64,000 nt of DNA from Gimesia fumaroli (GTDB lineage Bacteria; Planctomycetota; Planctomycetia; Planctomycetales; Planctomycetaceae). Positions within the stretch are counted from its first letter, which is position 1, and each line of letters begins with the position of its first letter. The position numbers and the translations under genes are program-made. The notes beneath the pieces were generated by a model, which had not been told where the DNA came from, did no database searches, and saw only the letters and a program-made list of their open reading frames with translations. Below, piece after piece: positions 32,305 to 53,732 of the stretch. The DNA is taken from assembly GCF_007754425.1 (NCBI RefSeq), contig NZ_CP037452.1:1872664-1936663 (forward strand). Direction: 5' to 3'.

Positions 32305-32311
32305 GAAAGAG

Positions 32312-32363
32312 TCGGGACGACAGGATTTGAACCTGCGACCTCTACACCCCCAGTGTAGCGCCC
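32312..32363 (-). other. attL: 3' half of tRNA-Pro(GGG)
   Basis: On the minus strand this reads as the anticodon arm to the 3' end of a tRNA: stem CTACA/TGTAG with loop CTGGGGG (anticodon GGG), T arm GCAGG TTCAAAT CCTGT and acceptor strand CGTCCCG plus A. The acceptor 5' strand and D arm are missing; phage-type sequence lies there instead, and an integrase gene follows 230 bases on. This is the classic footprint of tRNA-gene integration. The intact tRNA should be rebuilt at the other prophage end, outside this window. Confidence 0.88.
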
Positions 32364-32596: not shown

Positions 32597-33562
32597 ATGA
32601 TTGAGAGAGTTGTTTCACTAAGGGTTGCTCTTGATGAGAACTTTTGCCCACCCCGTATTGTCAGGGAAAGCACCTACAACAGGTATGTCTACGACTGCAA
32701 CCGCTGGGAGAAATTTACAGATGACCCTGATGTTCGCAGAATTAACACCGACATGATTCTGAGTTTCCGGAAGAAACTGATTGATGATAATCTATCGATT
32801 AACACGATCGTTCCGAATCTGAAAACGATCTACTATGTGCTTGTTTCCTGCCAGAAAGCCGGATTGATTAAAGATGTTCCTGACTTCGGTGTGCCGCTCG
32901 AAGAGGAGCCTCCTACTCCCGATCCAGTACCGTTCGATGATCTAGCGAGATTCCTGGAACACACTCACGTTGCAAAGTGGCCACTGGATCCAGAATACTG
33001 GAATCGATATGTCGGATTCGCATACCTCACTGGTCTCAGGCGCGATGACCTGAAAGCGATCGAGAGAAAGCACTGCAACGAGCACAGAATCAAGTACAAG
33101 GCCAGTAAGACCAAAAAGACGCACGTTTACCCAATGCCAGTCTGGTTGTGGCGTATGGTCAAACCTCAGGCTGCAGGAAGGCTTTTCACGGTCTCTCCGA
33201 AAAGAATCTATCGGGAAATGCGCCGGATCTGCAATGCTGCAGGAATCGAGTATTTCACGCCGAAAAACATCCGCGTGCTTTCCTGCAACGAATGGGAATC
33301 GGCCCGGGAGAATTGCGGGGCCGTCATCCAGGGCGGTGCTATCAAAGGCTGGTCAAAAGCAACAGGCAATTATATGACTACGCACGGACTGCTGTTTAAA
33401 GGGGTTCACAAACTCAGGATTCCCAGTCCTTTTCTGACAGAAGAGGAACGCAATAAAGAAGTTAATGACAGGCAGCGTTGGCACCAAATGTTTGAGAAGC
33501 TTCCCACACAGATGCGCGAGCATATCCTGGGACTGGGGGAGAATATGATTCAAGGAAGCTGA
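32597..33562 (+). CDS. int: Phage integrase (tyrosine recombinase)
   Basis: 321 residues. An N-terminal SAM-like core-binding domain covers about residues 20-90, and the catalytic domain covers about 110-270. Visible catalytic residues are Arg148 (LTGLRRDD), a Lys at 171 or 174, Arg226 (TPKNIRVLS), Trp252 (GWSKATGNY) and the nucleophile Tyr259. The usual His before the second Arg is Lys here, and Trp takes the His-III place, which is seen in a minority of the family. It sits next to the att site as expected. Its stop directly abuts the stop of the convergent next gene. Confidence 0.9.
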   Translation: MIERVVSLRVALDENFCPPRIVRESTYNRYVYDCNRWEKFTDDPDVRRINTDMILSFRKKLIDDNLSINTIVPNLKTIYYVLVSCQKAGLIKDVPDFGVPLEEEPPTPDPVPFDDLARFLEHTHVAKWPLDPEYWNRYVGFAYLTGLRRDDLKAIERKHCNEHRIKYKASKTKKTHVYPMPVWLWRMVKPQAAGRLFTVSPKRIYREMRRICNAAGIEYFTPKNIRVLSCNEWESARENCGAVIQGGAIKGWSKATGNYMTTHGLLFKGVHKLRIPSPFLTEEERNKEVNDRQRWHQMFEKLPTQMREHILGLGENMIQGS

Positions 33563-35807: not shown

Positions 35808-36335
35808 CTAAACAATGATCAGATCAAACTTCCGATCATGCGACGTCTCACCTTCGATCACGCGTTCTGCATTGAACAGCTGCTGAATCGCTTCTGACAG
35901 ATCCTTGTCCTTCGCGCGGTTCGTGTCATCAACGACAATCACCGTTCCTTTTATGACAAGCCTGATAATTATATCCAGAACGCCATTTCGGTTTCCCTCG
36001 CCCGCGGGGCCATCAATTAGGATGCAGTGGAATGGCCCCTGCGGTATGGTGTCATAGAAACCTAAACTATTCAGGTCGGAAAAAATAATCGTAGTGTCTT
36101 CGGATGGTGAATGAGACTTTACCAGATCGATGTACTGCCGGCTGTTATCGATTGCCGTGTGCCGGTGGCCAGCATAATCAAAGAGCAGGGTGCTCAGGCC
36201 ACAACCGAACTCCAGCGTTTTTGAATTCGGCTGGATGTGCAGAGCAATCGCGTTCCACACTTCCTTACCGATTGCCCCCTTCGATAAATCCTTTTTCTCA
36301 TTCCAAACTTGAGAAACTGCATCATAAAAAGCCAT
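35808..36335 (-). CDS. SAM-dependent methyltransferase-like protein
   Basis: 175 residues with a class I Rossmann fold. Motif I is LEFGCGLSTLLF at about residues 38-49. The acidic residue after strand 2 is in TAIDNSRQY; strand 4 ends CILIDGPAGEG; strand 5 is GTVIVVDDTNR. The fold resembles methyltransferases that act with glycosyltransferases on sugars. It is the last gene of the leftward late operon, 15 bases after a glycosyltransferase, so methyl capping of a phage-made glycan is a reasonable inference. The substrate is not shown. Confidence 0.78.
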   Translation of the reverse strand: MAFYDAVSQVWNEKKDLSKGAIGKEVWNAIALHIQPNSKTLEFGCGLSTLLFDYAGHRHTAIDNSRQYIDLVKSHSPSEDTTIIFSDLNSLGFYDTIPQGPFHCILIDGPAGEGNRNGVLDIIIRLVIKGTVIVVDDTNRAKDKDLSEAIQQLFNAERVIEGETSHDRKFDLIIV

Positions 36336-36350
36336 AGTCCGCTTTTCCTT

Positions 36351-37058
36351 TTACTTGTGAACAAAGACAACGTTTGCTGAGTAGTCGAACTTTCGGAACT
36401 CAGAATTGAACGGGTAACCTTCAGCCCAGAAACGGAAGTCCCTGTAGGCAACCTGGTTGTAGACAGCCATGTTCAGATTCTTTCTGCCCGCCCTGATCAG
36501 GTTAAATTCTCCGCAGAGCTTGATAGCAAATTCCTTTGCGGCCTCGTATTTACCGCCCCAGTGACCGCTTGCCAGGATCGTCTGATTCAGACTCTCAGGC
36601 GGTACGTCTCCATAGGCCTGTTTGAATTTGTTGACCATCCACCGACCGTCTGGAGTCGCGAGGTTGTTCTTCCACTCGATGCGTTCGATGCCTAAAAACA
36701 GATCGTGTTCGGGGAACAGTTCCAGCATCACCTCCGGCCTGCGATTCATTCGCACGTCGAACAGGTCGCAGTACCAGACCGTTTCGTACTGGTGATGATT
36801 CAGCCAGTCGAGAATGCAGAAGTGGCGATAGTCGCAAATGGAATAGGTCGGGGAGACGGGAACCCGCACGAACTGAACCAGATCGCTCGACCATTTTTCG
36901 CAAAACGGATTGGAAAGCAGGTCATGAAAGATGATCAACTCCACTCCAAGCCGTTCGCAATCTGAAATCAGAGGTTCGACTTTAGAATCGTCATCGGCCA
37001 GCATCTGGCCTTTCCCCTGTGGATCGGGAAAGCCAGTGAAGTAGCAGCTAAAAAGCAT
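36351..37058 (-). CDS. Glycosyltransferase-like protein (GT-A fold)
   Basis: 235 residues. VWYCDLFDVRMNRRPE contains a DxxD that fits the metal/sugar-nucleotide site of GT-A enzymes, and the preceding RHFCILDWLNHHQYE is typical of galactosyl- or polysaccharide-pyruvyl-neighbour transferases. LFLGIERIEWKNN and NQTILASGHWGG are further structured blocks. The gene begins on the stop codon of its neighbour (TAATG), so translation is coupled. Among the four transferases of this operon it is the most distant from family 2. Confidence 0.7.
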   Translation of the reverse strand: MLFSCYFTGFPDPQGKGQMLADDDSKVEPLISDCERLGVELIIFHDLLSNPFCEKWSSDLVQFVRVPVSPTYSICDYRHFCILDWLNHHQYETVWYCDLFDVRMNRRPEVMLELFPEHDLFLGIERIEWKNNLATPDGRWMVNKFKQAYGDVPPESLNQTILASGHWGGKYEAAKEFAIKLCGEFNLIRAGRKNLNMAVYNQVAYRDFRFWAEGYPFNSEFRKFDYSANVVFVHK

Positions 37059-37846
37059 TAAGGTTCAGTCCTCTTGAGTAAGTCCGCTTTATTTTGGATC
37101 CAGTGTTCGGAGACGTTGCCTTCAATTCTGAAATACTCAGAAACGGCTGAGGTCCAGTTCCGTTCTTCCGGATCCGGAAGAACTTCGACAACCGGGCATT
37201 TCTTCCAGTCGTCTTTTAATAGTTCTCTCCCGTTTTGTGACAAGCCCGAAATGTGGTAGCTGCCTGTGTGGTGCCATCTGTAGATGTAATACGGGGGCCA
37301 GTTCTCGCACGAATCAGCAATATCGAGACCAGCACGCACGAACCCCCTGTGCAAGTCGCGGTCTTCTCCGGTGTCTTTGTGAGAGTAGCCGCCCGCTTTC
37401 TTGAATGCTTCAGGAGTGAAAGCCCAGGCACCGTGAAAGACTCCTTTCCCCCGCTCGAGCAGAATCTGCCGGCTCTGCCTGTGCTCAGAAAGAATTCGTG
37501 ACGGCATGGAAACGCCGGCGTTCTGCAGCGCATCCGCGTGAGCCCTGAGAGTCCACGCACAATAACCGTCATCGTCATCCATGACTACGTAGCCGTCTGC
37601 ATCGGCAGGAGCGATCGAGGCCAGGGCGTTTCGTTTTTCGCCCAGGGACGCGTGCTTGTTTTTGACCGAGATGATTGACCAGCCCGGGCCAGATGGCTCG
37701 CTGGGGTACTGCCCGACGTCGTCATAGATGAGCAGTTCCTTTTTGTCCTCTGGGTAATCGAACTGTTCAAAGTCGCGGATCATGCTGGCGAGTAGCTGCG
37801 GTCTGAGGTAAGTACAGCAGAGGCAAACGAGTTTAGGTAGTGTCAT
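37058..37846 (-). CDS. Family 2 glycosyltransferase
   Basis: 262 residues. The opening, LVCLCCTYLRPQLLASMIRD, is the first strand of a GT2 domain. The metal site is the run DDDD in GYVVMDDDDGYCAW at about residue 90. RNALASIAPADAD before it matches the family pattern. The later segment GVFHGAWAFTPEAFKKAGGY is the typical acceptor-side loop. No membrane span is present, so it acts in the cytoplasm. Its start overlaps the stop of the upstream gene by four bases (ATGA). Confidence 0.85.
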   Translation of the reverse strand: MTLPKLVCLCCTYLRPQLLASMIRDFEQFDYPEDKKELLIYDDVGQYPSEPSGPGWSIISVKNKHASLGEKRNALASIAPADADGYVVMDDDDGYCAWTLRAHADALQNAGVSMPSRILSEHRQSRQILLERGKGVFHGAWAFTPEAFKKAGGYSHKDTGEDRDLHRGFVRAGLDIADSCENWPPYYIYRWHHTGSYHISGLSQNGRELLKDDWKKCPVVEVLPDPEERNWTSAVSEYFRIEGNVSEHWIQNKADLLKRTEP

Positions 37847-38808
37847 TTCACCCTTTCGATCTGATCAGAGTTACGATGTTGATTTAACGCTCCAAAGCCT
37901 TCAGGCTTCGCTCCTGCGGCGATCTGCCGGTAATGCGTCTCGAACGTCACGTGAATCGCTTTCAACTCGCTGGAACCGAAGCCTATGCGTTTTCCGTGCG
38001 ACAGACTCTTTGAGTGCAATCGCCTGAGTGCAACGACATCGGGAGATATAAAAAACGAGCAGCCCATTTCATGGGCCCGCCGAATCAAATGCGTGTCTGC
38101 CGCAGTCAAAGCCTCTGTATAGCCGTTCAGCTTTTCAAAAGTTGACTTCCTGATACCCATAGTCGGATGAACCACGTTCCCACCTGGGTTTGCTTCGTTG
38201 ATGTTGCCAGATGTCAGTGTTGGAGATTTGTGGTAGATTCGTTCGACCAGAGGGCAAGACCACTTGTGGTCAATGAACTGCTGGACTGACGCGCCGAAGA
38301 TCTCACGACCGGTCTGTTCCAGGCACGCCACCGTATACCAGCAACGGTCGGGCATGGCGATATCATCCGAGTCCTGAACCAACATGATGTCGGTTTCCAG
38401 ATGGTCGAAAATTCGCATGGTGGAAATGAATGGACCAACGGCCGTTTTGTTTCGCCACTTTCGCACGTTTGGCGCGTCGTTGAACTTAAACCGCAGGGCA
38501 TCCTCTGAGGTTGGGAAGCCATCTGCGATCAGATGGATAATCGGCCTGGCACAGTTCTGGTTCAGGATCGAATTGACGGATTCTTCTACCCATTCGAATG
38601 TTGCGGGGTGATATGGAATGATGACGTCACAGGTAACAGGATCTCGCTTTCCTGTAGTGATGTGCCCTGGCTGCAGGTTGTCGGTCTTCCGCTCGCAATA
38701 GTGATAATGGTGCCAGTCAGACTGGCATTGCCTAACTTCTGCCGGCGTCTTCTCTTTCAGGTGACGCGGACAAAGCCCCGCTGCTTTACATTGACAAAGG
38801 GTTTTCAT
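37843..38808 (-). CDS. Family 2 glycosyltransferase with N-terminal Cys-rich segment
   Basis: 321 residues. A Cys/His-rich start (CQCKAAGLCPRHL) may bind zinc. The GT2 domain starts near residue 58 with TCDVIIPYHPATFEWVEESV, and its DxD site is in IMLVQDSDDIAMPDR at about residue 148. GGNVVHPTMGIRKSTFEKLN is the later GT2 block. The start overlaps the previous gene by four bases (ATGA). Polypeptide or sugar-chain acceptors are both possible. Confidence 0.83.
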   Translation of the reverse strand: MKTLCQCKAAGLCPRHLKEKTPAEVRQCQSDWHHYHYCERKTDNLQPGHITTGKRDPVTCDVIIPYHPATFEWVEESVNSILNQNCARPIIHLIADGFPTSEDALRFKFNDAPNVRKWRNKTAVGPFISTMRIFDHLETDIMLVQDSDDIAMPDRCWYTVACLEQTGREIFGASVQQFIDHKWSCPLVERIYHKSPTLTSGNINEANPGGNVVHPTMGIRKSTFEKLNGYTEALTAADTHLIRRAHEMGCSFFISPDVVALRRLHSKSLSHGKRIGFGSSELKAIHVTFETHYRQIAAGAKPEGFGALNQHRNSDQIERVK

Positions 38809-39668
38809 GCTGCCTGTTCTTTAGGTGGTAGTTCGTGTTTGATACCAGTGCTTTCGATGATGCGTTTGATTTCCGCGTCGTGCATCCCGATTGAACGAAA
38901 ATGATTGATCGGGTCATTCAAATTCATGCCTAGTTCTTTCCAGCCGATCAGATAGTTCCTGAGCTTGTAGCTGTTGCAGATCGGGTACTTGGGACCTTCT
39001 GGCCTGAGAAAGCAGTGGTTCCAGCGCAGGAAGGGCAGGCACATTGTTTTGCGTCCATGCGTGCGGTATTTCTCGTGGATGTATCCTTCCTCACCGCCGA
39101 ACCGCTCGAACTTCGGATTGAATCCGAGCCAGGCATCTTTTCGGCACGAGAACAGACCGAGTCCGTGCATGCGGATATCGAACGGAAGAAAATCGGGATT
39201 GCTGCCGCGCGGGTCAAAGCCCCACGTGCCGAACATCCCGTCACGCCATTCTTCATTCATGTGCGTTGCCATGTTGCCGTCGAGCCCGTCGTAGATCATC
39301 GGACCATGGAAGAGGTCAAGGGCGTCTGGGAACTGCTCGTACCAGCTGAGAAGGCGGGGCAGGGCATTATCACCGAGCAATACATGTGAGTCGAGGCAAA
39401 GCACAGAGGGAGCCGTGGCGACTTCGAAAATATGGTTCCGAGGGGCAGCAGTCCCCCCCTTCTCAAACGGTATATAGCGTCCGTTGCTAACCCACCTCTC
39501 AACCCAGTCCTTAGTTGCTTTGCCGTGTTTTGATTCAGGATTATTATCGACCACGATGAACTCAATTTGGTCCATCAGCTCCGGGTAGTCATCCCTGATG
39601 TCTTGGATCGTAAACCACACACCAGGTGCATCATCATAGACTGCCATGCCTATCGTCAGTTTTTTCAT
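38805..39668 (-). CDS. Family 2 glycosyltransferase
   Basis: 287 residues. LTIGMAVYDDAPGVWFTIQD opens the GT2 fold. VVDNNPES is the second strand, and SVLCLDSHVLLGDNALPRLL contains the DxH variant of the metal motif that is typical of polypeptide N-acetylgalactosaminyltransferases and some relatives. GFNPKFERFGGEEGYIHEKY resembles the acceptor-loop FGGEE motif seen in such enzymes. It is the first of the transferases and starts 13 bases after the tail hub gene. The DxH plus GGEE features make a peptide acceptor a serious option. Confidence 0.84.
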   Translation of the reverse strand: MKKLTIGMAVYDDAPGVWFTIQDIRDDYPELMDQIEFIVVDNNPESKHGKATKDWVERWVSNGRYIPFEKGGTAAPRNHIFEVATAPSVLCLDSHVLLGDNALPRLLSWYEQFPDALDLFHGPMIYDGLDGNMATHMNEEWRDGMFGTWGFDPRGSNPDFLPFDIRMHGLGLFSCRKDAWLGFNPKFERFGGEEGYIHEKYRTHGRKTMCLPFLRWNHCFLRPEGPKYPICNSYKLRNYLIGWKELGMNLNDPINHFRSIGMHDAEIKRIIESTGIKHELPPKEQAA

Positions 39669-39681
39669 CTCAGTCCTTTTT

Positions 39682-42405
39682 TTATTCGCTGTTTGGCGTA
39701 ACCGTTACATGGTCAGGGAAGGTGAAACACGCGCTGCCATTGTTGTATGGAATGTCATAGCTATCTGCCGTTGGAACAATGCCTTGCAACAGAAACGTAA
39801 CGTTTTGCGATACCCCGTTTGGATGCCCCTCTTCTTCTCCGCGGTATCTGATATAGACATTCATGTTCGTGCTGTCGTTTTGCCCAGGATTACAATAAAG
39901 CGTCACGAATATCTCACCACGCCAACCATAGTCACCGGACCACGGCGATCCCCCTTCAAAGTATTGAACGTGATACTGATTTGTGCCGGTTCTGGGGATC
40001 GTGTGAACCTTTGCCATGACGGACTGTGTGATCGCTGAGACACAATCGCCTGTGGCGTAATTCGTGAGATCTAAATCAACTGATGGTCCAATAAGATTAT
40101 CAGGGCAGGGCCAAGGAGCACCTGTTGTGGTTGTTCCTCCTTCTGGTGTTGTTCCTGATGCTGTCGTTGTTGTTGGCGCGCCAGTCGTGGTTGGTTCGCC
40201 AGTCGTGGTCGGTGATACTCCTGCTTCAGGCCAGGACACAATGCCTCTTCCACCATCGACCGCAACTCCGATTGATCTCGCGCAAGTCTGGTCATCTGGT
40301 GAAGACGTATTGATTGTGAAGTCCCACAGGTTCGATTCAATCAGAAGCTGAATCTCTTCCATCGCTCCCTGCTGCAGGCTTCCTGAGATGTGACGGACCG
40401 TTCTGATTCGCCCGTAGACCCCGTCGAAGACAAGCCCGCCGTTGCCGTCAGCATAATTCAGGAGCACCACATCCCCCGGCTGCAGGTGCAGCCCATTCAG
40501 GAACGTACTGACGTTGATCATGCGATTGATCAGCAGTTTGTAAGCCAGCCAGTTTTCAGTTGCATAAGCAACGGAAGTCGGGAGCTGAAAAGCCCAGAGA
40601 TCCAGCTCCTCACGCTTCTCTTTAAAGTTGGCAACAGCTTCGTCACTGGTTCGCGACAGCCTTTGTTCCGGACTGGGAATTGCCTGTCTGAACTTGGCAA
40701 TCATTTCTGTCGGCATGTCTTTGTCAGGAACCATCTCGACCTTGATAGAATCCATTTTGACATTCGACGGCGTGAGTGCGAGCTGATGGCCTGTGAAATT
40801 TGTTTCAATATATTTCAGAGTGGCCTTGCCCTGATCCCAGAAGAGGAGACAGTTCGCCTGCTGCGCCAAGTTACTGACCAGTTCATTCAGTTTCTTTTCT
40901 TCCTGAATGGCGAATGCCATTTTCGTGACGATGCTAGCGGCAGCTGCCGTGAAGGAATCTGAGTCGATGAACCCCGAACTGATATTGCCCAGGTACGGGT
41001 TTGTCAGCATGTGTTGAAGCACATCTGCCGGATCTTCAATCACGTCGTCTGAATCATTCATGATCCCTTTGATGGTGGCGTAGATGGTTTCGTTCGGAAA
41101 TCCGTAAACTGCAGGTGTGCTGTTTAGGGTCAGAGTAGTGACACCATCTGCATCAGAAGCCCGCCCCAGTGCTTCATTGTGTGTTTTGTCGTTCAGGCTC
41201 ACTGAATAGGAACTATCACTGTAGCTGAGGAACACGTCTTTAGTCTGCCCACCACCAGCCGAACCCGACGAGCCTTTTGCTTCAACCAACACAACCTCTT
41301 TTGAAGGCAAGTAATTCAACAGATATTTGTAGGTCCCAAGTTCATAGACTGGAGTACCAGGCATCCAGTTGTATTTGAACTGGGCAACAGAACCGATCTT
41401 AAACTGCGTCGAGGTATCAGCAGTGAAATCAGGAGGCTCTTGAACAATGGCTACCTGGCTACCTTGGAAGCTCCAGAGTGTGATCGTCGTTTCGTACCAG
41501 CCAGCCCCATTGTTTAGCCAAAGTGGATACCCTCTCAGATTAAAATTAGGATCACTCAGAGCAGACTGATTGATCATGATGTAACGCTGCCCGCCCTCTG
41601 CGTAGATTCCAGAGACATTACCACTGGCAAGAATGCTACCTCTGCTCGTGACATTAAATATCATGGAAGTGGGGCCCGAGAAACTTCCAGTCACAAGTTC
41701 GAAATTGTTGGGGTAGCCAACGACAAGTTGTATGGATGAGCCTGTTGTGAAAAAAAGTTTGTTGGCTTCATCATGAATCGTCATGATCGTGTCATGTTGG
41801 CCAAATGGACTGGATAGATAACCTTCACCAGGTCTGTCAATCACACATGCCGGCACTCGTTTACAGGGATTTCCGTAAACAATGGGGATGGTCTTGCCAT
41901 CGCATTCTGAGCAGTTGACGTCGTTGAAGTCTTCCTGTTTGATCAGCCGACCAATCGATTTGTCGAAGTATTCCTGCAGGCCCTTCATGCTGATCGACCA
42001 GTTGACGTCGCGGTCATTCCAGTTGAGCGGAGTGGACAGCACGCCGGCGAACAGAACGATTTTGTCAGTATCCCAATCAGTCCCTTCAAACCAGAGGTAG
42101 ACGTAAGCCAGTTTGTTTTGCACGCCCGGGAATGATTCAAACAGCGATCGCATGGTCCGGTCTGAATCTTCCAGAGTAATCGTGAGCTGATCGAAGCCGC
42201 CGACCTTACCGGGTTCGGCAGACAGAGAGAGCTGCCCCCAGTTGACGATTCTCCCTTCACAGGGAACCGGACCGTGCAGCAGTTCTTCGGCGTAGTATTT
42301 GTTACCGGTTGCACCGCCGAATTGGATCTCCAATATTTTGCGCGGAAACGCACCGGTGACTTTGTTTTTTTCTGTGGTCGTTGCGCTCGTTAAAGTTCTA
42401 GCCAC
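39682..42405 (-). CDS. Tail hub/tip protein with Thr-rich linker and C-terminal domain
   Basis: 907 residues. The first 700 are beta-rich with the layout of tail hub or tip attachment proteins, and the position after the tape measure gene fits. At about residues 727-762 a mucin-like linker of PTTTGE and PTTTT units appears. The last 145 residues form a separate domain with Cys and many aromatic residues (YFEGGSPWSGDYGWRG), a likely receptor or glycan contact. I chose GTG at 42405 because GGAGG lies eight bases upstream; it overlaps the tape measure stop by eight bases. Glycosyltransferase genes follow directly. Confidence 0.75.
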   Translation of the reverse strand: MARTLTSATTTEKNKVTGAFPRKILEIQFGGATGNKYYAEELLHGPVPCEGRIVNWGQLSLSAEPGKVGGFDQLTITLEDSDRTMRSLFESFPGVQNKLAYVYLWFEGTDWDTDKIVLFAGVLSTPLNWNDRDVNWSISMKGLQEYFDKSIGRLIKQEDFNDVNCSECDGKTIPIVYGNPCKRVPACVIDRPGEGYLSSPFGQHDTIMTIHDEANKLFFTTGSSIQLVVGYPNNFELVTGSFSGPTSMIFNVTSRGSILASGNVSGIYAEGGQRYIMINQSALSDPNFNLRGYPLWLNNGAGWYETTITLWSFQGSQVAIVQEPPDFTADTSTQFKIGSVAQFKYNWMPGTPVYELGTYKYLLNYLPSKEVVLVEAKGSSGSAGGGQTKDVFLSYSDSSYSVSLNDKTHNEALGRASDADGVTTLTLNSTPAVYGFPNETIYATIKGIMNDSDDVIEDPADVLQHMLTNPYLGNISSGFIDSDSFTAAAASIVTKMAFAIQEEKKLNELVSNLAQQANCLLFWDQGKATLKYIETNFTGHQLALTPSNVKMDSIKVEMVPDKDMPTEMIAKFRQAIPSPEQRLSRTSDEAVANFKEKREELDLWAFQLPTSVAYATENWLAYKLLINRMINVSTFLNGLHLQPGDVVLLNYADGNGGLVFDGVYGRIRTVRHISGSLQQGAMEEIQLLIESNLWDFTINTSSPDDQTCARSIGVAVDGGRGIVSWPEAGVSPTTTGEPTTTGAPTTTTASGTTPEGGTTTTGAPWPCPDNLIGPSVDLDLTNYATGDCVSAITQSVMAKVHTIPRTGTNQYHVQYFEGGSPWSGDYGWRGEIFVTLYCNPGQNDSTNMNVYIRYRGEEEGHPNGVSQNVTFLLQGIVPTADSYDIPYNNGSACFTFPDHVTVTPNSE
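40114..40219 (-). repeat. Thr-rich linker-coding repeat in the hub gene
   Basis: About 106 bases read as ACN Thr triplets on the minus strand with Pro, Gly and Glu between them (PTTTGEP, PTTTGAP, TTTTAS). It is a short version of the large Thr-rich array at 46336-46962. Confidence 0.8.
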
Positions 42406-45400
42406 TGAATCGACCTCCACGGCGCTGAGCCACCTGATCAAGCCTGTCGTACAGCTCGTCCACTTCGATCTGAGAAATACGGGTCACATTCGGCAGATTG
42501 ATTTCGTTCCGGTTGTTTTGCGTATTAACTGACTGCAGGCCCGGGTCTTTAAAGAAGTTGTTGCCTGTAACTCCCGAGAACGTTGGAGGTGGTGCCTGGG
42601 TGACGGCGTCCAGTTGATTGAGCAGATTGTCAATCATGTCCTGAATTCGCTTGCGTGCCGAATAGGTATCAACGAGCGTCATGTTCTGCTCAAGTTGAGT
42701 GATCTGGTTCCGCAGGTTGGCAGCCTGACCTTGTGTTGAACTGAAGAACGAGCGAAGTGTCTGGATGGCCTGGTCAGAGACCTGTGAGACACCACCAAAG
42801 GCAGAACCCAGCTTATCACCGAATCCATCCAGACCGCTGCGAAGTTGGCCGAAGCCTTCTGTGGCCAGTCCCATCTGCTGATTGAAGCCAAACATGGCAT
42901 TGAAGGAACGCTCTACCGCGCTGGAGAACTGCTGTTGCCTGAAGGCAATGATCCGGTCTTCTAACGCCGTTTTGAAATCCTTTGCGGAGAACTTACCCTG
43001 AATCAACCGCTTGCGTTCTTCTGCAGCTGCGGCAGCTTTGGCAGCATCGGCTGCTTTCTGTGTCTCTTTCGTCAGGGCTGATACACCAGACTTGTATTCG
43101 TCGATGCCGATCTTACCATCGCGGAATTGTTCACGTAGCGAGTTGAACGAACCGGCCAGAGATTCGAGAACGCGATTGGGGATCTTACCTTTCAGTCCCT
43201 GCATCATCGTCCCGAGTTGCTGTAATGACTGCTTGTAGACTTCCTGTTTGCGTTCACGTTCGTCTTCAAACTGGCTTTGCCGTTGAAGTCGGCTGGCCGT
43301 TCTGGTTGCAAGATAGTCCATCTCACTCGCAGTAAACTCTCCGTCCTGGAGAATGTAATCGTATAGCTCTGAGATGTCCTGCCGGATCTGTGGCGTCATA
43401 CCCTCAATGGTGCCGAGGAACTGATTGAACTGTTCCTGTGTGGGGCCGAGGTCAATGAAGTCCCTGACTTTTGAGAAGCCCGGGAGTTCCCTGTCTTTGG
43501 CATCCCGCCTGGAATCGCGTAGGATGTTTGCAATTTCATTTGGATCAACTTCAGCCTGAATTGCTGACTGCCCTTCCGCCGCCTGATCGACTGGGGTAAA
43601 CGGCGCGTTGTCCTGCAAGGATCGTGATTGATCGAAAGTCGCCTTGGCTTCAAAAAACCTTTTGGCTACCTGGCTAAGTGTTCCTTCCAATTCTTTGACT
43701 CGATTAAGATCCTCTTCTTCTATCAACCCTTTCTTAAATGCGTCATGTGCTTCGGCAGCAATCTGCTCAATCCTCTGTCGCGCATTTAATAAAGCTATTA
43801 ACTGTTTCTTTGGGTCTTCTCCAGTCCCCATGTTTATTGCAGCATCAGCAATCTTCTTTGCATCCTCGACGGCGTCTTTCACTGCCTTGGTGCGATCTTT
43901 TTCGAGATCATTACGCTCCTTGAGCGTCTTGATTTCCTTTTCTAGTTTCTCCTGATTTTTATCCATTTCAATACCGAGCGCTTTTAGCACAGGTGTCAAT
44001 GTGGAATCAATCAGATTTGCCATACCAGCGAGAGCGTCAACTGCAAATCCTACAACCTCAGTAACTGCAACAATGGCACCGTGCAATGCCCAGAATCCGA
44101 ATTTTACCAACTCTCGCATTACCGGTGTTGCAACTTTGAATCCGGCAACGACCAGATCACCTATCGCTTTCAAGATGTTCTTGAAGCTTGGTATCATGGT
44201 GCGAACCATCGGGATGACTTCATCCCTGATGATCTGTGCAAACTTCTTGAATTCCGGGAATAAAGCTTTTGCGAGAGTGCGGGCCATATCAGCAAATGCA
44301 GGTAGCAACTCGTTTTTTGTTTCGACCCAGATCTCTTTTAGAACTGGCATCAATTCGTTACTGACTATGTTGCTGATATCTGAAAAAACCGGTCCGAGTT
44401 CGCGCCTAATGATGCCACTGACATCACAAACGACGGACATGAATTCACGGTAAATTGCAATTAACGGATTGAAAACACCAAAGTTCTTTTGAGCCCATGA
44501 AGCTACTTTTTTCAAGGCCATAGCCAGAGCAACGACAACTCCGATTCCAAGAACCGTTTGAAGTGTGACTATCGAGGCAGAAAATAACTTTGTCGATACA
44601 CTTGCTGCTCTTACCCATGATATGAACGCGGCGAGACCAGATACTGAACCTGCAAGAGCAGTTCCCAGACTTGTGATTGCCTGAGTAACTCCCAATGCAC
44701 TGACTGCTTTCAGCGCCAGCATGGTAGCCAGGATTCCGGGGTGTGCTGCAATAAAATCCCGTATCGGCCCCATGAAGCCAGCCATCATATCCCAGGCTTC
44801 TTTCAAGCCAGGCGATGCCTCATTGAGCCATTGAACAAGATTCTTCAAACCGTTAACCAAGGCGATGGTTGCGTTCGAAACCTTCTCTACAATTCCCGGC
44901 TTATGCTCTTCCAGGTATTTTTTAAATTCGTTTGTTGCACCTACAAGAGCGTCGCTCTGATGCTCACCTATCTCAATGACCAGGTCCGAAATGGATGACT
45001 TCAGCAATTCGATTTGGCCAACCTGCGTGCTTAGATTGGCCTCTTCCATTTTAGCTGTCAATCCAGCTGCTTCATTTATCCCTTTAGCGAATTCCCGTAC
45101 TGCATCCGTTCCACGGTCCAACACCGCAATCATTGCCGGCCCAGCACGAACGCCAAATATTTCCGAAACAATTGCCAGCCTTTCTTGCGGGTTAGCAACG
45201 CTTCGCAATGCCATTTCCAATTGACTCAGAGTATCAATCAGTGGGCCAGCTGTATTGATATTCATGTCTTTCAAAAGCTTATTGGCTTTTGCAGACGGGT
45301 TAGCGATATGAATGAATGCGTTTCGCAGTGCAGTACCTGCGAGCGAAGCCTGAAAGCCTGCATCACCCATGATGCCTAAAATGGAAACTGTATCTCTGAG

Positions 45401-46009
45401 ATTCACGTTCACAGAGTTAGCAACCGGCCCTACCATCTTCAACGCTTCCGCAAGCTGCGTTAAATCAGTATTGGAGCTGGTGAATGTTGCGGCCAAAACG
45501 TCGTTGATATGCGTCAGGTCTTTCGCTTCCGCGCCATAGGCACGCATTGTCTTCGCACTAATGTCTGCGGCCTGCGCGATCGAAAGCTGAGCAGCAGAAG
45601 CAAGTTGCAGTGTTGGCTTTAATGCCGTGGTGATTTCATTCACCTTCAGGCCAGCCAGTCCCAGCTTCTCCATTGCCTCTGCAGACTGCGTTGCCGTGAA
45701 TACCGTGGTTCGGCCAGCATCACGAGCCGCATCTTCAAGAGTTTTGAAATCGCGGGTTCCCAATGTGCGAGTCACTGCCCCAACGCGGGTCATCGTCTGT
45801 TCGAATTTACCGAATGTGGTCGCAGAGATCAGGCCAATGGCACCAATCACCATGACGATTCTGGCCCCTGCAGAAGCCGTGTCTTTGGCGGCAGACACCC
45901 ACTGCTGACGTAGCTGACGAGTCGCAGAGATTGCCGCCTTCATTCCGCGCACAAAGCCAGCCGTCTTCGTACTGACGATTGCTCTAAGTGCGTGGATTGT
46001 GGAACTCAT
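42398..46009 (-). CDS. Tail tape measure protein (TP901 family)
   Basis: 1203 residues. The N-terminal third has the TP901-type core: FGKFEQTMTRVGAVTRTLGT, TATQSAEAMEKLGLAG and FQASLAGTALRNAFIHIA. Hydrophobic helices lie at about 440-520, where the protein may later cross the host membrane. Long coiled coils follow, consistent with a tail-length ruler inside the tube. Length suggests a tail of roughly 180 nm at the usual 1.5 Å per residue. The C-terminus ends in RRGGRFSG. It is 11 bases after the Thr-rich protein gene. Confidence 0.93.
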   Translation of the reverse strand: MSSTIHALRAIVSTKTAGFVRGMKAAISATRQLRQQWVSAAKDTASAGARIVMVIGAIGLISATTFGKFEQTMTRVGAVTRTLGTRDFKTLEDAARDAGRTTVFTATQSAEAMEKLGLAGLKVNEITTALKPTLQLASAAQLSIAQAADISAKTMRAYGAEAKDLTHINDVLAATFTSSNTDLTQLAEALKMVGPVANSVNVNLRDTVSILGIMGDAGFQASLAGTALRNAFIHIANPSAKANKLLKDMNINTAGPLIDTLSQLEMALRSVANPQERLAIVSEIFGVRAGPAMIAVLDRGTDAVREFAKGINEAAGLTAKMEEANLSTQVGQIELLKSSISDLVIEIGEHQSDALVGATNEFKKYLEEHKPGIVEKVSNATIALVNGLKNLVQWLNEASPGLKEAWDMMAGFMGPIRDFIAAHPGILATMLALKAVSALGVTQAITSLGTALAGSVSGLAAFISWVRAASVSTKLFSASIVTLQTVLGIGVVVALAMALKKVASWAQKNFGVFNPLIAIYREFMSVVCDVSGIIRRELGPVFSDISNIVSNELMPVLKEIWVETKNELLPAFADMARTLAKALFPEFKKFAQIIRDEVIPMVRTMIPSFKNILKAIGDLVVAGFKVATPVMRELVKFGFWALHGAIVAVTEVVGFAVDALAGMANLIDSTLTPVLKALGIEMDKNQEKLEKEIKTLKERNDLEKDRTKAVKDAVEDAKKIADAAINMGTGEDPKKQLIALLNARQRIEQIAAEAHDAFKKGLIEEEDLNRVKELEGTLSQVAKRFFEAKATFDQSRSLQDNAPFTPVDQAAEGQSAIQAEVDPNEIANILRDSRRDAKDRELPGFSKVRDFIDLGPTQEQFNQFLGTIEGMTPQIRQDISELYDYILQDGEFTASEMDYLATRTASRLQRQSQFEDERERKQEVYKQSLQQLGTMMQGLKGKIPNRVLESLAGSFNSLREQFRDGKIGIDEYKSGVSALTKETQKAADAAKAAAAAEERKRLIQGKFSAKDFKTALEDRIIAFRQQQFSSAVERSFNAMFGFNQQMGLATEGFGQLRSGLDGFGDKLGSAFGGVSQVSDQAIQTLRSFFSSTQGQAANLRNQITQLEQNMTLVDTYSARKRIQDMIDNLLNQLDAVTQAPPPTFSGVTGNNFFKDPGLQSVNTQNNRNEINLPNVTRISQIEVDELYDRLDQVAQRRGGRFSG

Positions 46010-46020
46010 ACTGGAATTCT

Positions 46021-47358
46021 TTAAGCAGTAGGATCGTAATCGGTTACGTAAATCAACTCAGCAGGGAATGGATATGAGAACTGACCGAGCAGTCCAGTAC
46101 ATGATGTAGAGGCTGCTGGATTGCTCGACGTGTTTTCAATATTGGTCCATGTCAGCCACCATTCGCCATCAATACACTGAAAGCTGAATGCATCACCATC
46201 ACCATCCACAGCACCGGTCGTCCAAGGGACTGAGGATGATGCTCTTGTCATCACCATTAGCTTCTTGCCCTCAGACTGAAACTCAACGTACAAGGTGTCA
46301 GGCGGTGCAGGATTACAAGCACAGTTCGGATCTGGAGCTGCTGTTGTGGTTGGGGCCCCAGTTGTGGTGGTCGTGGTCGGGACACCAGTTGTCGTGGTTG
46401 TCGGGACGGCCGTCGTCGTGGTACCTCCTGCAGTTGTGGTCGGACCTGCGGTGGTCGTCGTACCGGCAGCCGTTGTCGTGGTTGGCGCAGCTGTCGTAGT
46501 CGTCGGCTCCGCAGTTGTTGTCGTGGGCTCACTGGTCGTTGTTGTTGGCTCAGGCGGTTGGGTTGTGGTGGTGGTCGTCGTAGTCGTAGTCGTCGTGGGA
46601 CTTGATGTTGTGGTCGTCGGACTCGACGTGGTCGTGGTCGGTACTCCTGTCGTAGTCGTTGGCGCACTGGTCGTGGTTGTTGGTTCTGCAGTTGTCGTAG
46701 TCGGCTCAGCAGTCGTAGTAGTTGGTTCCGCTGTCGTGGTGGTCGGTTCGGAAGTCGTGGTCGTGGGAGCAGACGTTGTGGTGGTTGGCGCTGCCGTTGT
46801 TGTCGTAGGGGCTGCTGTGGTCGTCGTAGGTGCAGCAGTCGTGGTCGTCGTTGTGGTGGTGGTCGTGGTTGTTGTCGGTGCCGCTGTCGTCGTAGGAGGT
46901 GCGGTCGTCGTGGGAGGTGCCGTGGTCGTCGTGGTCGTGGTAGTAGTAGTGGTCGTCGTCGTTCCGTTCGCTTCCGGCTGCTGAGTCGATTCAATGGTGA
47001 GAGTGATCCCAAATGTGTTGGAGTCATCCCGAGACCAGCGCAGCTCAGTATCAATAAAGCGAACATTCGCATATTCAGTCCCATCCGTGTAAGTCAATGT
47101 GAAAGTGTTAGTCGGACCTTTGACCGAATCGGTGAAGAAGTCTTCCAGTTCTTTACGGTTTTCCAGCGTGAGGCTACGGAAGGCCAATCGCCATTGCCAG
47201 GTCTTGCGTGAAGTCTTCTGGTAGACGTATCGCGTGTGATCAGCAGATTGGCCTGTCACCCACATGGGGAGCAACCGAGGTTCTGTCGTCGCATCAGGTC
47301 CGGCGATGTCCACCGATGCCGTGCCGTCGTTCAGATTGATCGATGTTTGACCTGGCAT
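46021..47358 (-). CDS. Thr-rich mucin-like tail protein
   Basis: 445 residues in three parts. Residues 1-132 are a beta-rich domain with tail-protein features (TWQWRLAFRSLTLENRKELE, NTFTLTYTDG). Residues 133-341 are almost only Thr, Pro, Ala, Ser and Glu in heptads such as AEPTTTT, a mucin-like, extended segment. Residues 342-445 form a Cys- and Trp-containing domain (CIDGEWWLTWTN). The gene lies between the tail chaperones and the tape measure gene, an unusual place, as the tape measure normally follows the chaperones directly. The start overlaps the chaperone end by 65 bases. The Thr segment is a likely target for O-glycosylation by the encoded transferases; that is inference. Confidence 0.8.
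   Translation of the reverse strand: MPGQTSINLNDGTASVDIAGPDATTEPRLLPMWVTGQSADHTRYVYQKTSRKTWQWRLAFRSLTLENRKELEDFFTDSVKGPTNTFTLTYTDGTEYANVRFIDTELRWSRDDSNTFGITLTIESTQQPEANGTTTTTTTTTTTTTTAPPTTTAPPTTTAAPTTTTTTTTTTTTTAAPTTTTAAPTTTTAAPTTTTSAPTTTTSEPTTTTAEPTTTTAEPTTTTAEPTTTTSAPTTTTGVPTTTTSSPTTTTSSPTTTTTTTTTTTTQPPEPTTTTSEPTTTTAEPTTTTAAPTTTTAAGTTTTAGPTTTAGGTTTTAVPTTTTTGVPTTTTTTGAPTTTAAPDPNCACNPAPPDTLYVEFQSEGKKLMVMTRASSSVPWTTGAVDGDGDAFSFQCIDGEWWLTWTNIENTSSNPAASTSCTGLLGQFSYPFPAELIYVTDYDPTA
46336..46962 (-). repeat. 21-bp degenerate minisatellite coding PTTTT heptads
   Basis: About 627 bases encode over a dozen heptads of the type xxPTTTT plus longer Thr runs. All four Thr codons are mixed, so the copies agree in protein but not in DNA. 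The opposite strand reads as a long Val/Gly frame, which is an artefact. Confidence 0.9.
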
Positions 47359-53657: not shown

Positions 53658-53732
53658 TGGCCGGTGCTGGATTTGAACCAGCGATCTCTTGATTATGAGT
53701 CAAGCGGGATGGCCGAACTTCCCTAACCGGCG
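53658..53732 (-). tRNA. Phage-encoded tRNA(CAU)
   Basis: A complete cloverleaf: acceptor CGCCGGT/ACCGGCC with an unpaired C1-C72, D arm GGGA/TCCC, anticodon stem CTTGA/TCAAG with loop CTCATAA, variable loop AGATC, T arm GCTGG TTCAAAT CCAGC, discriminator A. The anticodon CAU means Met, or Ile if the C is modified to lysidine. It lacks the three G-C pairs of initiator tRNA in the anticodon stem. No CCA is encoded. Confidence 0.9.

Follow-up and report, generated by a model that had tools for sequence, protein, structure and literature searches.

Four glycosyltransferase genes (GT1 to GT4) and a methyltransferase gene (MT) follow the tail genes of a prophage of Gimesia fumaroli, which raises the question of what this cassette glycosylates. 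The reading favored here, with a probability of about 0.72, is that the prophage brings its own system for mucin-type O-glycosylation of proteins. What we infer about its sugars, order of steps, acceptors, capping and biological role is given in conditional terms. The host replicon is a complete genome of 7.70 Mb, and the window, i.e. the whole stretch of 64,000 nucleotides that was analyzed, covers part of the prophage (Table 1). The prophage is ~64 kb long, and its ends are perfect 52-bp repeats, the copy at window coordinate 96172 being the end of a tRNA-Pro(GGG). The integrase-like gene is located just inside the first repeat copy, and the structural genes include those of the portal, an HK97-type capsid, the tape measure and the hub. 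The cassette lies inside the attachment repeats, between the hub and other tail genes and the integrase end, and is therefore phage-owned; its glycosyltransferases are phage-encoded, as is expected of virion glycosylation by a phage's own enzymes.

Table 1. Features of the prophage locus, in window coordinates, with the profile matches or domain assignments of each.
Feature	Coordinates	Strand	Remarks
Attachment-site repeat	32310..32361	.	Perfect 52-bp match to the tRNA-Pro(GGG) end at window coordinate 96172
Prophage integrase-like gene	32597..33562	+	PF13102, 1.2e-4
MT, SAM methyltransferase, proposed sugar O-methylation (capping)	35808..36335	-	PF13578, 5e-5, below cut-off
GT4, glycosyltransferase, proposed chain extender	36351..37058	-	Solely PHROG 1579 'glycosyltransferase', 8.6e-7
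GT3, glycosyltransferase, proposed chain extender	37058..37846	-	Weak PF02709, 0.013
GT2, family-2 glycosyltransferase, proposed chain extender	37843..38808	-	PF00535, 3.6e-10, above cut-off
GT1, polypeptide GalNAc-transferase-like, proposed initiating enzyme, 287 aa	38805..39668	-	PF00535, above cut-off
Tail hub / tail-tip protein	39682..42405	-	PF13550 Phage-tail_3; PHROG 1101 tail
Hub Thr-rich segment, ~35-aa linker, proposed second acceptor	40096..40239	-	About residues 732-766
Tail tape-measure protein	42398..46009	-	PF10145, 8e-41; PHROG tape measure, 1.5e-76
Thr-rich protein, 445 aa	46021..47358	-	N-terminal domain of ~130 aa, mucin-like Thr/Pro/Ala linker, variable C-terminal domain
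Thr/Pro-rich mucin-like linker, ~209-211 aa, proposed O-glycan acceptor	46330..46962	-	

The Thr-rich protein encoded at 46021-47358 is matched by none of the family models, and its position beside the tape measure, together with its conservation in a sister phage, suggests that it is a tail protein. Its long Thr-rich segment corresponds roughly to residues 133-343, and 134 threonines are found within a 243-residue stretch. They are encoded by 49 ACG, 37 ACC, 28 ACA and 20 ACT codons in mixed order. Since all four threonine codons are in use, the linker appears to be maintained at the protein level, by selection on the protein, and a microsatellite or slipping DNA repeat was ruled out as the origin of the tract on the same ground. 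Copies of CCNACNACNAC number 26 in the window, where 1.2 would be expected, and the shuffles reach 5 at most. Only two Thr-rich ORFs are present in the window and the remaining prophage (to ~96,200), namely this gene and the hub gene, for which an alternative TTG start exists at 42441. The longer linker is encoded two genes upstream of GT1, the gene following the hub, and the hub with its 35-residue linker directly precedes GT1. The hub and GT1 genes are separated by 13 bases, the genes from GT1 to GT4 overlap by 4, 4 and 1 bases, and 15 bases separate GT4 from MT. This is, base for base, the operon order and spacing given in a preliminary description of this DNA, which had also placed Thr/Pro linkers, about 209 and about 35 residues long, in two tail proteins, where they are indeed found.

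Enzymes of family GT27, the polypeptide GalNAc-transferases (ppGalNAc-Ts), transfer GalNAc from UDP-GalNAc onto Ser/Thr with retention, and the mucin-type O-glycosylation that they initiate is usually taught as eukaryotic. A PDB search with GT1 alone as the query missed GT27 and was little informative. With a profile of 30 diverse GT1 homologs, viral and cellular, the sequence search reports GalNAc-T10 as the best match (4.9e-9), with GalNAc-T12, T4, T7, T2, T9 and T1 among the matches that come after it. The GalNAc-T10 alignment spans profile positions 33-226, whereas other GT2-type matches reach the N-terminal half only, and it pairs DSH with DSH, GGE with GGE, and H218 with the GH of GalNAc-T10. 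The catalytic Mn2+ of a solved GalNAc-T is bound by the Asp and His of the DXH motif and by another His later in the sequence (PMC11074326); judging from the alignment, D93-S-H95 and H218 of GT1 would be the counterparts of these metal ligands. D93, H95 and H218 are invariant in the 30 diverse homologs, while D93-x-H95, an FGGEEGYIHEK block and a W-x-H motif are invariant or nearly so among 52 viral relatives. The AF2 model of GT1 has a mean pLDDT of 93.7, and its top 50 matches in the PDB are all ppGalNAc-Ts (GalNAc-T2, E 8.6e-14, TMq 0.70). The model of GT3 is confident in part and returns a mixed list of folds in which GalNAc-T2 first appears at rank 19; this model being weaker, GT3 is an imperfect specificity control for the GT1 fold match. 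Naming a function for GT3 from its model was dropped, the model being too uncertain. GT1 shares with GT27 the GT-A fold, the DXH metal motif, the later aligned His and the GGE motif, and the whole catalytic domain can be aligned to ppGalNAc-Ts, at 15-18% identity. Thr/Pro-rich segments, the acceptors of GT27, are likewise the proposed acceptors of GT1. Unlike GT27 enzymes, GT1 is phage-encoded, beside a structural gene, and is devoid of a C-terminal ricin-B lectin domain (PF00535 alone is found in its 287 residues). Because this domain, which accompanies GALNTs (PMC4202792), is absent, GT1 is not called a GT27 member; its mode of action is probably similar. The donor sugar and the linkage are not readable from the modeled fold.

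Environmental viral contigs contain hundreds of GT1 relatives; 260 stretches were confirmed, and the best 80 of them were retained. Viral loci were fetched via GT1 peptide patterns only, so that the search was unbiased towards Thr-rich neighbours, and, after clustering at 90% identity, 51 clusters had upstream sequence of 1 kb or more. A same-strand Thr-rich ORF ends within 1 kb upstream of GT1 in 30 of the 51, and within 50 bases of it in 24 of these, versus 2 of 129 ORFs at random viral loci picked with a random 15-mer (Fisher 3e-18; the counts include related phages and are phylogenetically non-independent). Among other same-strand ORFs of the same GT1 loci, 20 of 287 are Thr-rich. At the ±1.5-kb scale, a Thr-rich neighbour accompanies 27/46 GT1 genes vs 0/30 planctomycete PF00535 enzymes. 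About 40% of the viral GT1 loci have no nearby Thr-rich ORF at the threshold used. The 31 upstream proteins form 24 groups with no detectable homology outside their Thr-rich parts, some small ones being alike by eye, and 62 of the 87 tips of a GT1 protein tree carry the Thr-rich label, scattered over viral and cellular branches. Recurrence of the pairing in independent phages, which the preliminary description had proposed as a check of its reading, is thus observed at these non-redundant viral loci. Conversely, the 101 loci fetched for generic Thr-rich viral proteins, many of them short, include 2 with a GT1 homolog, and therefore Thr-rich phage linkers can do without GT1; a Pfam census of ORFs downstream of generic Thr-rich viral genes (n=72) reports PF00535 in 4 and GT6 in 1. 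Prediction thus runs one way, from GT1 to a Thr-rich neighbour and not from a Thr-rich protein to GT1.

The same layout is observed closer to the prophage, in a sister phage (IMGVR 3300022825_000007 and near copies), in the order Thr-rich protein, tape measure, hub, GT1, enlarged GT2, radical SAM, GT3, GT4 and MT. Identities amount to 60% for the hub, 79% for GT1, 83% for GT4 and 69% for MT. The N-terminal domain of the Thr-rich protein is 77% identical and its C-terminal domain is different. Both Thr linkers are present, diverged in sequence and length and retained in composition, that of the hub being retained in the sister-phage locus L084. GT1 occurs in 6 of 392 genomes of the phylum (planctomycetes). 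At locus L285, the tape measure is succeeded by two Thr-rich ORFs and these by GT1. At L288, a diverged GT1 accompanies a tail-tube gene and the gene of a G/T-rich protein. The arrangement at L289 is similar, the protein there being S/T/G-rich and the assignment to a phage being deduced from gene order only. The tail/Thr-rich/GT1 layout, for which the preliminary description suggested a search in planctomycete phages, is therefore repeated in the sister phage and in one or more further planctomycete phages. Regarding isolate phages (INPHARED), three GT1 queries returned 0 matches in 50,697 records and hub or terminase queries none either, while RecT, the positive control, matched 490 records; scans of viral contigs with the hub and the Thr-rich protein reported nothing beyond the prophage itself or the sister phage. 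Single-sequence scans with GT3 and GT4 found relatives in the sister phage alone. GT3 homologs adjoin GT1 at three loci (L059, L250, L287), and this adjacency is the sole independent tie of GT2-GT4 to Thr-rich proteins.

Bacterial homologs of GT1 also lie beside Thr-rich proteins, which provides independent support for the family acting on such proteins. A Thr-rich ORF is found within 5 kb in 23 of 38 bacterial GT1 loci, a count made without matched control genomes. Many of these neighbours are short proteins that begin with a twin-arginine-like sequence, contain the motif W-[ST]-K-P...P-A-H-A and end in a Thr-rich tail, and one such Tat-like protein reached the TIGR01409 cut-off. Bacterial GT1 often carries a fused HprK-related kinase A domain (below the curated cut-off of the model), and the fusions are found near PqqD and a nucleotidyltransferase (NTP_transf_5) at loci L241, L262, L255, L267, L254 and others. 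This system resembles that of the prophage in having the same GT1 family beside Thr-rich proteins, but it is cellular, its acceptor is predicted to be exported, and it includes added kinase, PqqD and nucleotidyltransferase genes. No description of HprK/PqqD/GT as a glycosylation system was found in the open literature, and the set is apparently an undescribed cellular system. Whether the GT1 family as a whole comprises widespread, undescribed prokaryotic and viral mucin-type Thr O-glycosyltransferases, each encoded beside its own acceptor (phage tail proteins, or small Tat-exported proteins in bacteria), the large aquatic phage acceptors bearing a C-terminal tag that may dock the enzyme, is in our judgment an evenly balanced question.

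The tag in question is a C-x(2,10)-C-[NK]-x-L-x-[FYW]-stop end of proteins encoded upstream of GT1 in environmental phages. It was found in 34 ORFs, all on the GT1 strand, whose products range from 103 to 2062 aa (loci L008, L014, L018-L023, L026, L027, L035, L036, L038, L041, L047, L049, L050, L055, L059, L064, L066, L071, L075, L077, L078 and L081). It occurs in 0 of 1468 ORFs of the random loci, in 0 of 5274 ORFs of the generic Thr-rich loci and in none of the window. This end is possibly a docking tag.

In the prophage, soluble GT1 would attach the first sugar to many threonines of the linkers of the hub and of the 46021-47358 protein, the likely acceptors, with initiation taking place in the cytoplasm, before or during tail assembly. 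The maximal 19-residue hydropathy of GT1-GT4 is 0.67-1.43, and the lack of a strongly hydrophobic segment agrees with virion proteins being modified in the cytoplasm. GT2, GT3 and GT4 would then extend the glycan, and the methyltransferase would methylate a sugar and cap it. The densely glycosylated linkers would become extended, protease-resistant and hydrophilic brushes exposed on the tail, probably serving as stalks, shields or adhesion surfaces. Self-made O-glycosylation of a tail segment was already the earlier reading, and it gains support from the co-occurrence and from the profile and fold match of GT1 to ppGalNAc-Ts. Points that weigh against it are the low identity of GT1 to these enzymes and its missing lectin domain, the position of the longer linker two genes away from GT1, the viral GT1 loci that have no Thr-rich ORF nearby, and the rarity of GT1 at generic Thr-rich loci.

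The main rival is lysogenic conversion, in which the cassette would remodel a surface polysaccharide or glycoprotein of the host in lysogeny, or else superinfection exclusion by the same means, the Thr linkers being plain flexible spacers. Between tail genes and integrase, the cassette does occupy the usual lysogenic-conversion site, GT2-GT4 are generic, and GT1 is missing from the fetched loci of most Thr-rich phage proteins (it is present in the 2 of 101 mentioned above). Cassettes of the gtr type, which cause seroconversion, consist of a membrane flippase and membrane glycosyltransferases. Here, GT1-GT4 have no strongly hydrophobic segment, no gtr-like family is among the Pfam/PHROG matches, and these report no gtr-type membrane flippase nearby. 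Furthermore, GT1 resembles a polypeptide transferase and lies behind Thr-rich genes in many phages and bacteria, and we hold conversion of host glycans to be unlikely. A division of functions, GT1 modifying the Thr linkers while GT2-GT4 and MT act elsewhere, on host glycans or on another virion protein, is favored by the recurrent Thr-rich link being limited to GT1 and, less so, GT3, and by the confinement of the GT3 and GT4 relatives from single-sequence scans to the sister phage. The tight packing of the five genes and the retention of the full set in the sister phage speak against it, and it appears somewhat less probable still.

Hypermodification of the phage DNA with sugars is the least credible alternative, at a very low probability. 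Modified DNA bases can be substrates of phage glycosyltransferases, according to the citation of Pyle et al. 2024 in PMC12619734, and the prophage has a C5-cytosine methylase. However, a whole-genome profile search for PF00303 (thymidylate synthase/hydroxymethylase) found none, the same search being positive in 9 of 14 control genomes, and DNA glycosylation is therefore unlikely; the bacterial GT1 homologs, moreover, adjoin Thr-rich proteins. The absence of a DNA-hydroxymethylating enzyme, first claimed from part of the prophage, thus extends to the entire genome as far as PF00303 is concerned.

Phage-encoded virion glycosylation is known in mycobacteriophages, where capsid and tail-tube subunits carry it at their C-termini (Freeman et al. 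2023, cited in both PMC12619734 and PMC13313380), and a glycosyltransferase and methyltransferase pair of Rhodococcus phages has been read as virion glycosylation in the account of PMC13313380. Going by these citing papers, the prophage resembles such phages in its phage-encoded glycosyltransferases and, for some actinobacteriophages, in the methyltransferase, capsid or tail glycosylation being proposed or shown there. It differs in that Thr/Pro linkers of the hub and of another tail protein would be modified instead of subunit C-termini, and by a ppGalNAc-T-like enzyme, a distinction drawn from the descriptions of the citing papers. The preliminary description knew of no phage system with this layout. 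In the open literature searched, neither a ppGalNAc-T-like phage enzyme nor a mucin-like tail acceptor was found, but virion glycosylation in general is already known from mycobacteriophages according to the same citations. If self-made O-glycosylation is correct, a phage with its own enzyme and mucin-like tail proteins would produce glycan-coated tails, which bears on adsorption, protease resistance and recognition. Enzyme and substrate being encoded side by side, their pairing is directly testable by co-expression. From the GT1 family in bacteria, one would predict an as yet unstudied class of exported glycoproteins rich in Thr, and the family is a possible source of an enzyme for producing O-glycosylated proteins in bacteria.

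Other observations concern gene content and boundaries. In the sister phage, the radical SAM gene (L006:13488-14303) is inserted between GT2 and GT3, and GT2 is an 828-aa ORF containing a further GT2-like copy and a third match that is partial. The IMG/VR record of the prophage (2936437551_000001; 57,493 bp) starts exactly at the end of the methyltransferase gene (window 35808), and the attachment repeats set the prophage boundary ~3.5 kb beyond the start of this record. The prophage also encodes a TIR + NB-ARC protein (L290:10814-12994; window coordinates 74650-76830), on the strand opposite most phage genes and likely a defence cargo, as well as the C5-cytosine DNA methylase and a PAPS-reductase-like protein (L290:14035-15984 and L290:17490-18419). 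Lastly, a tRNA-Met (CAT) gene is located at window 53658-53732, just upstream of the capsid gene.
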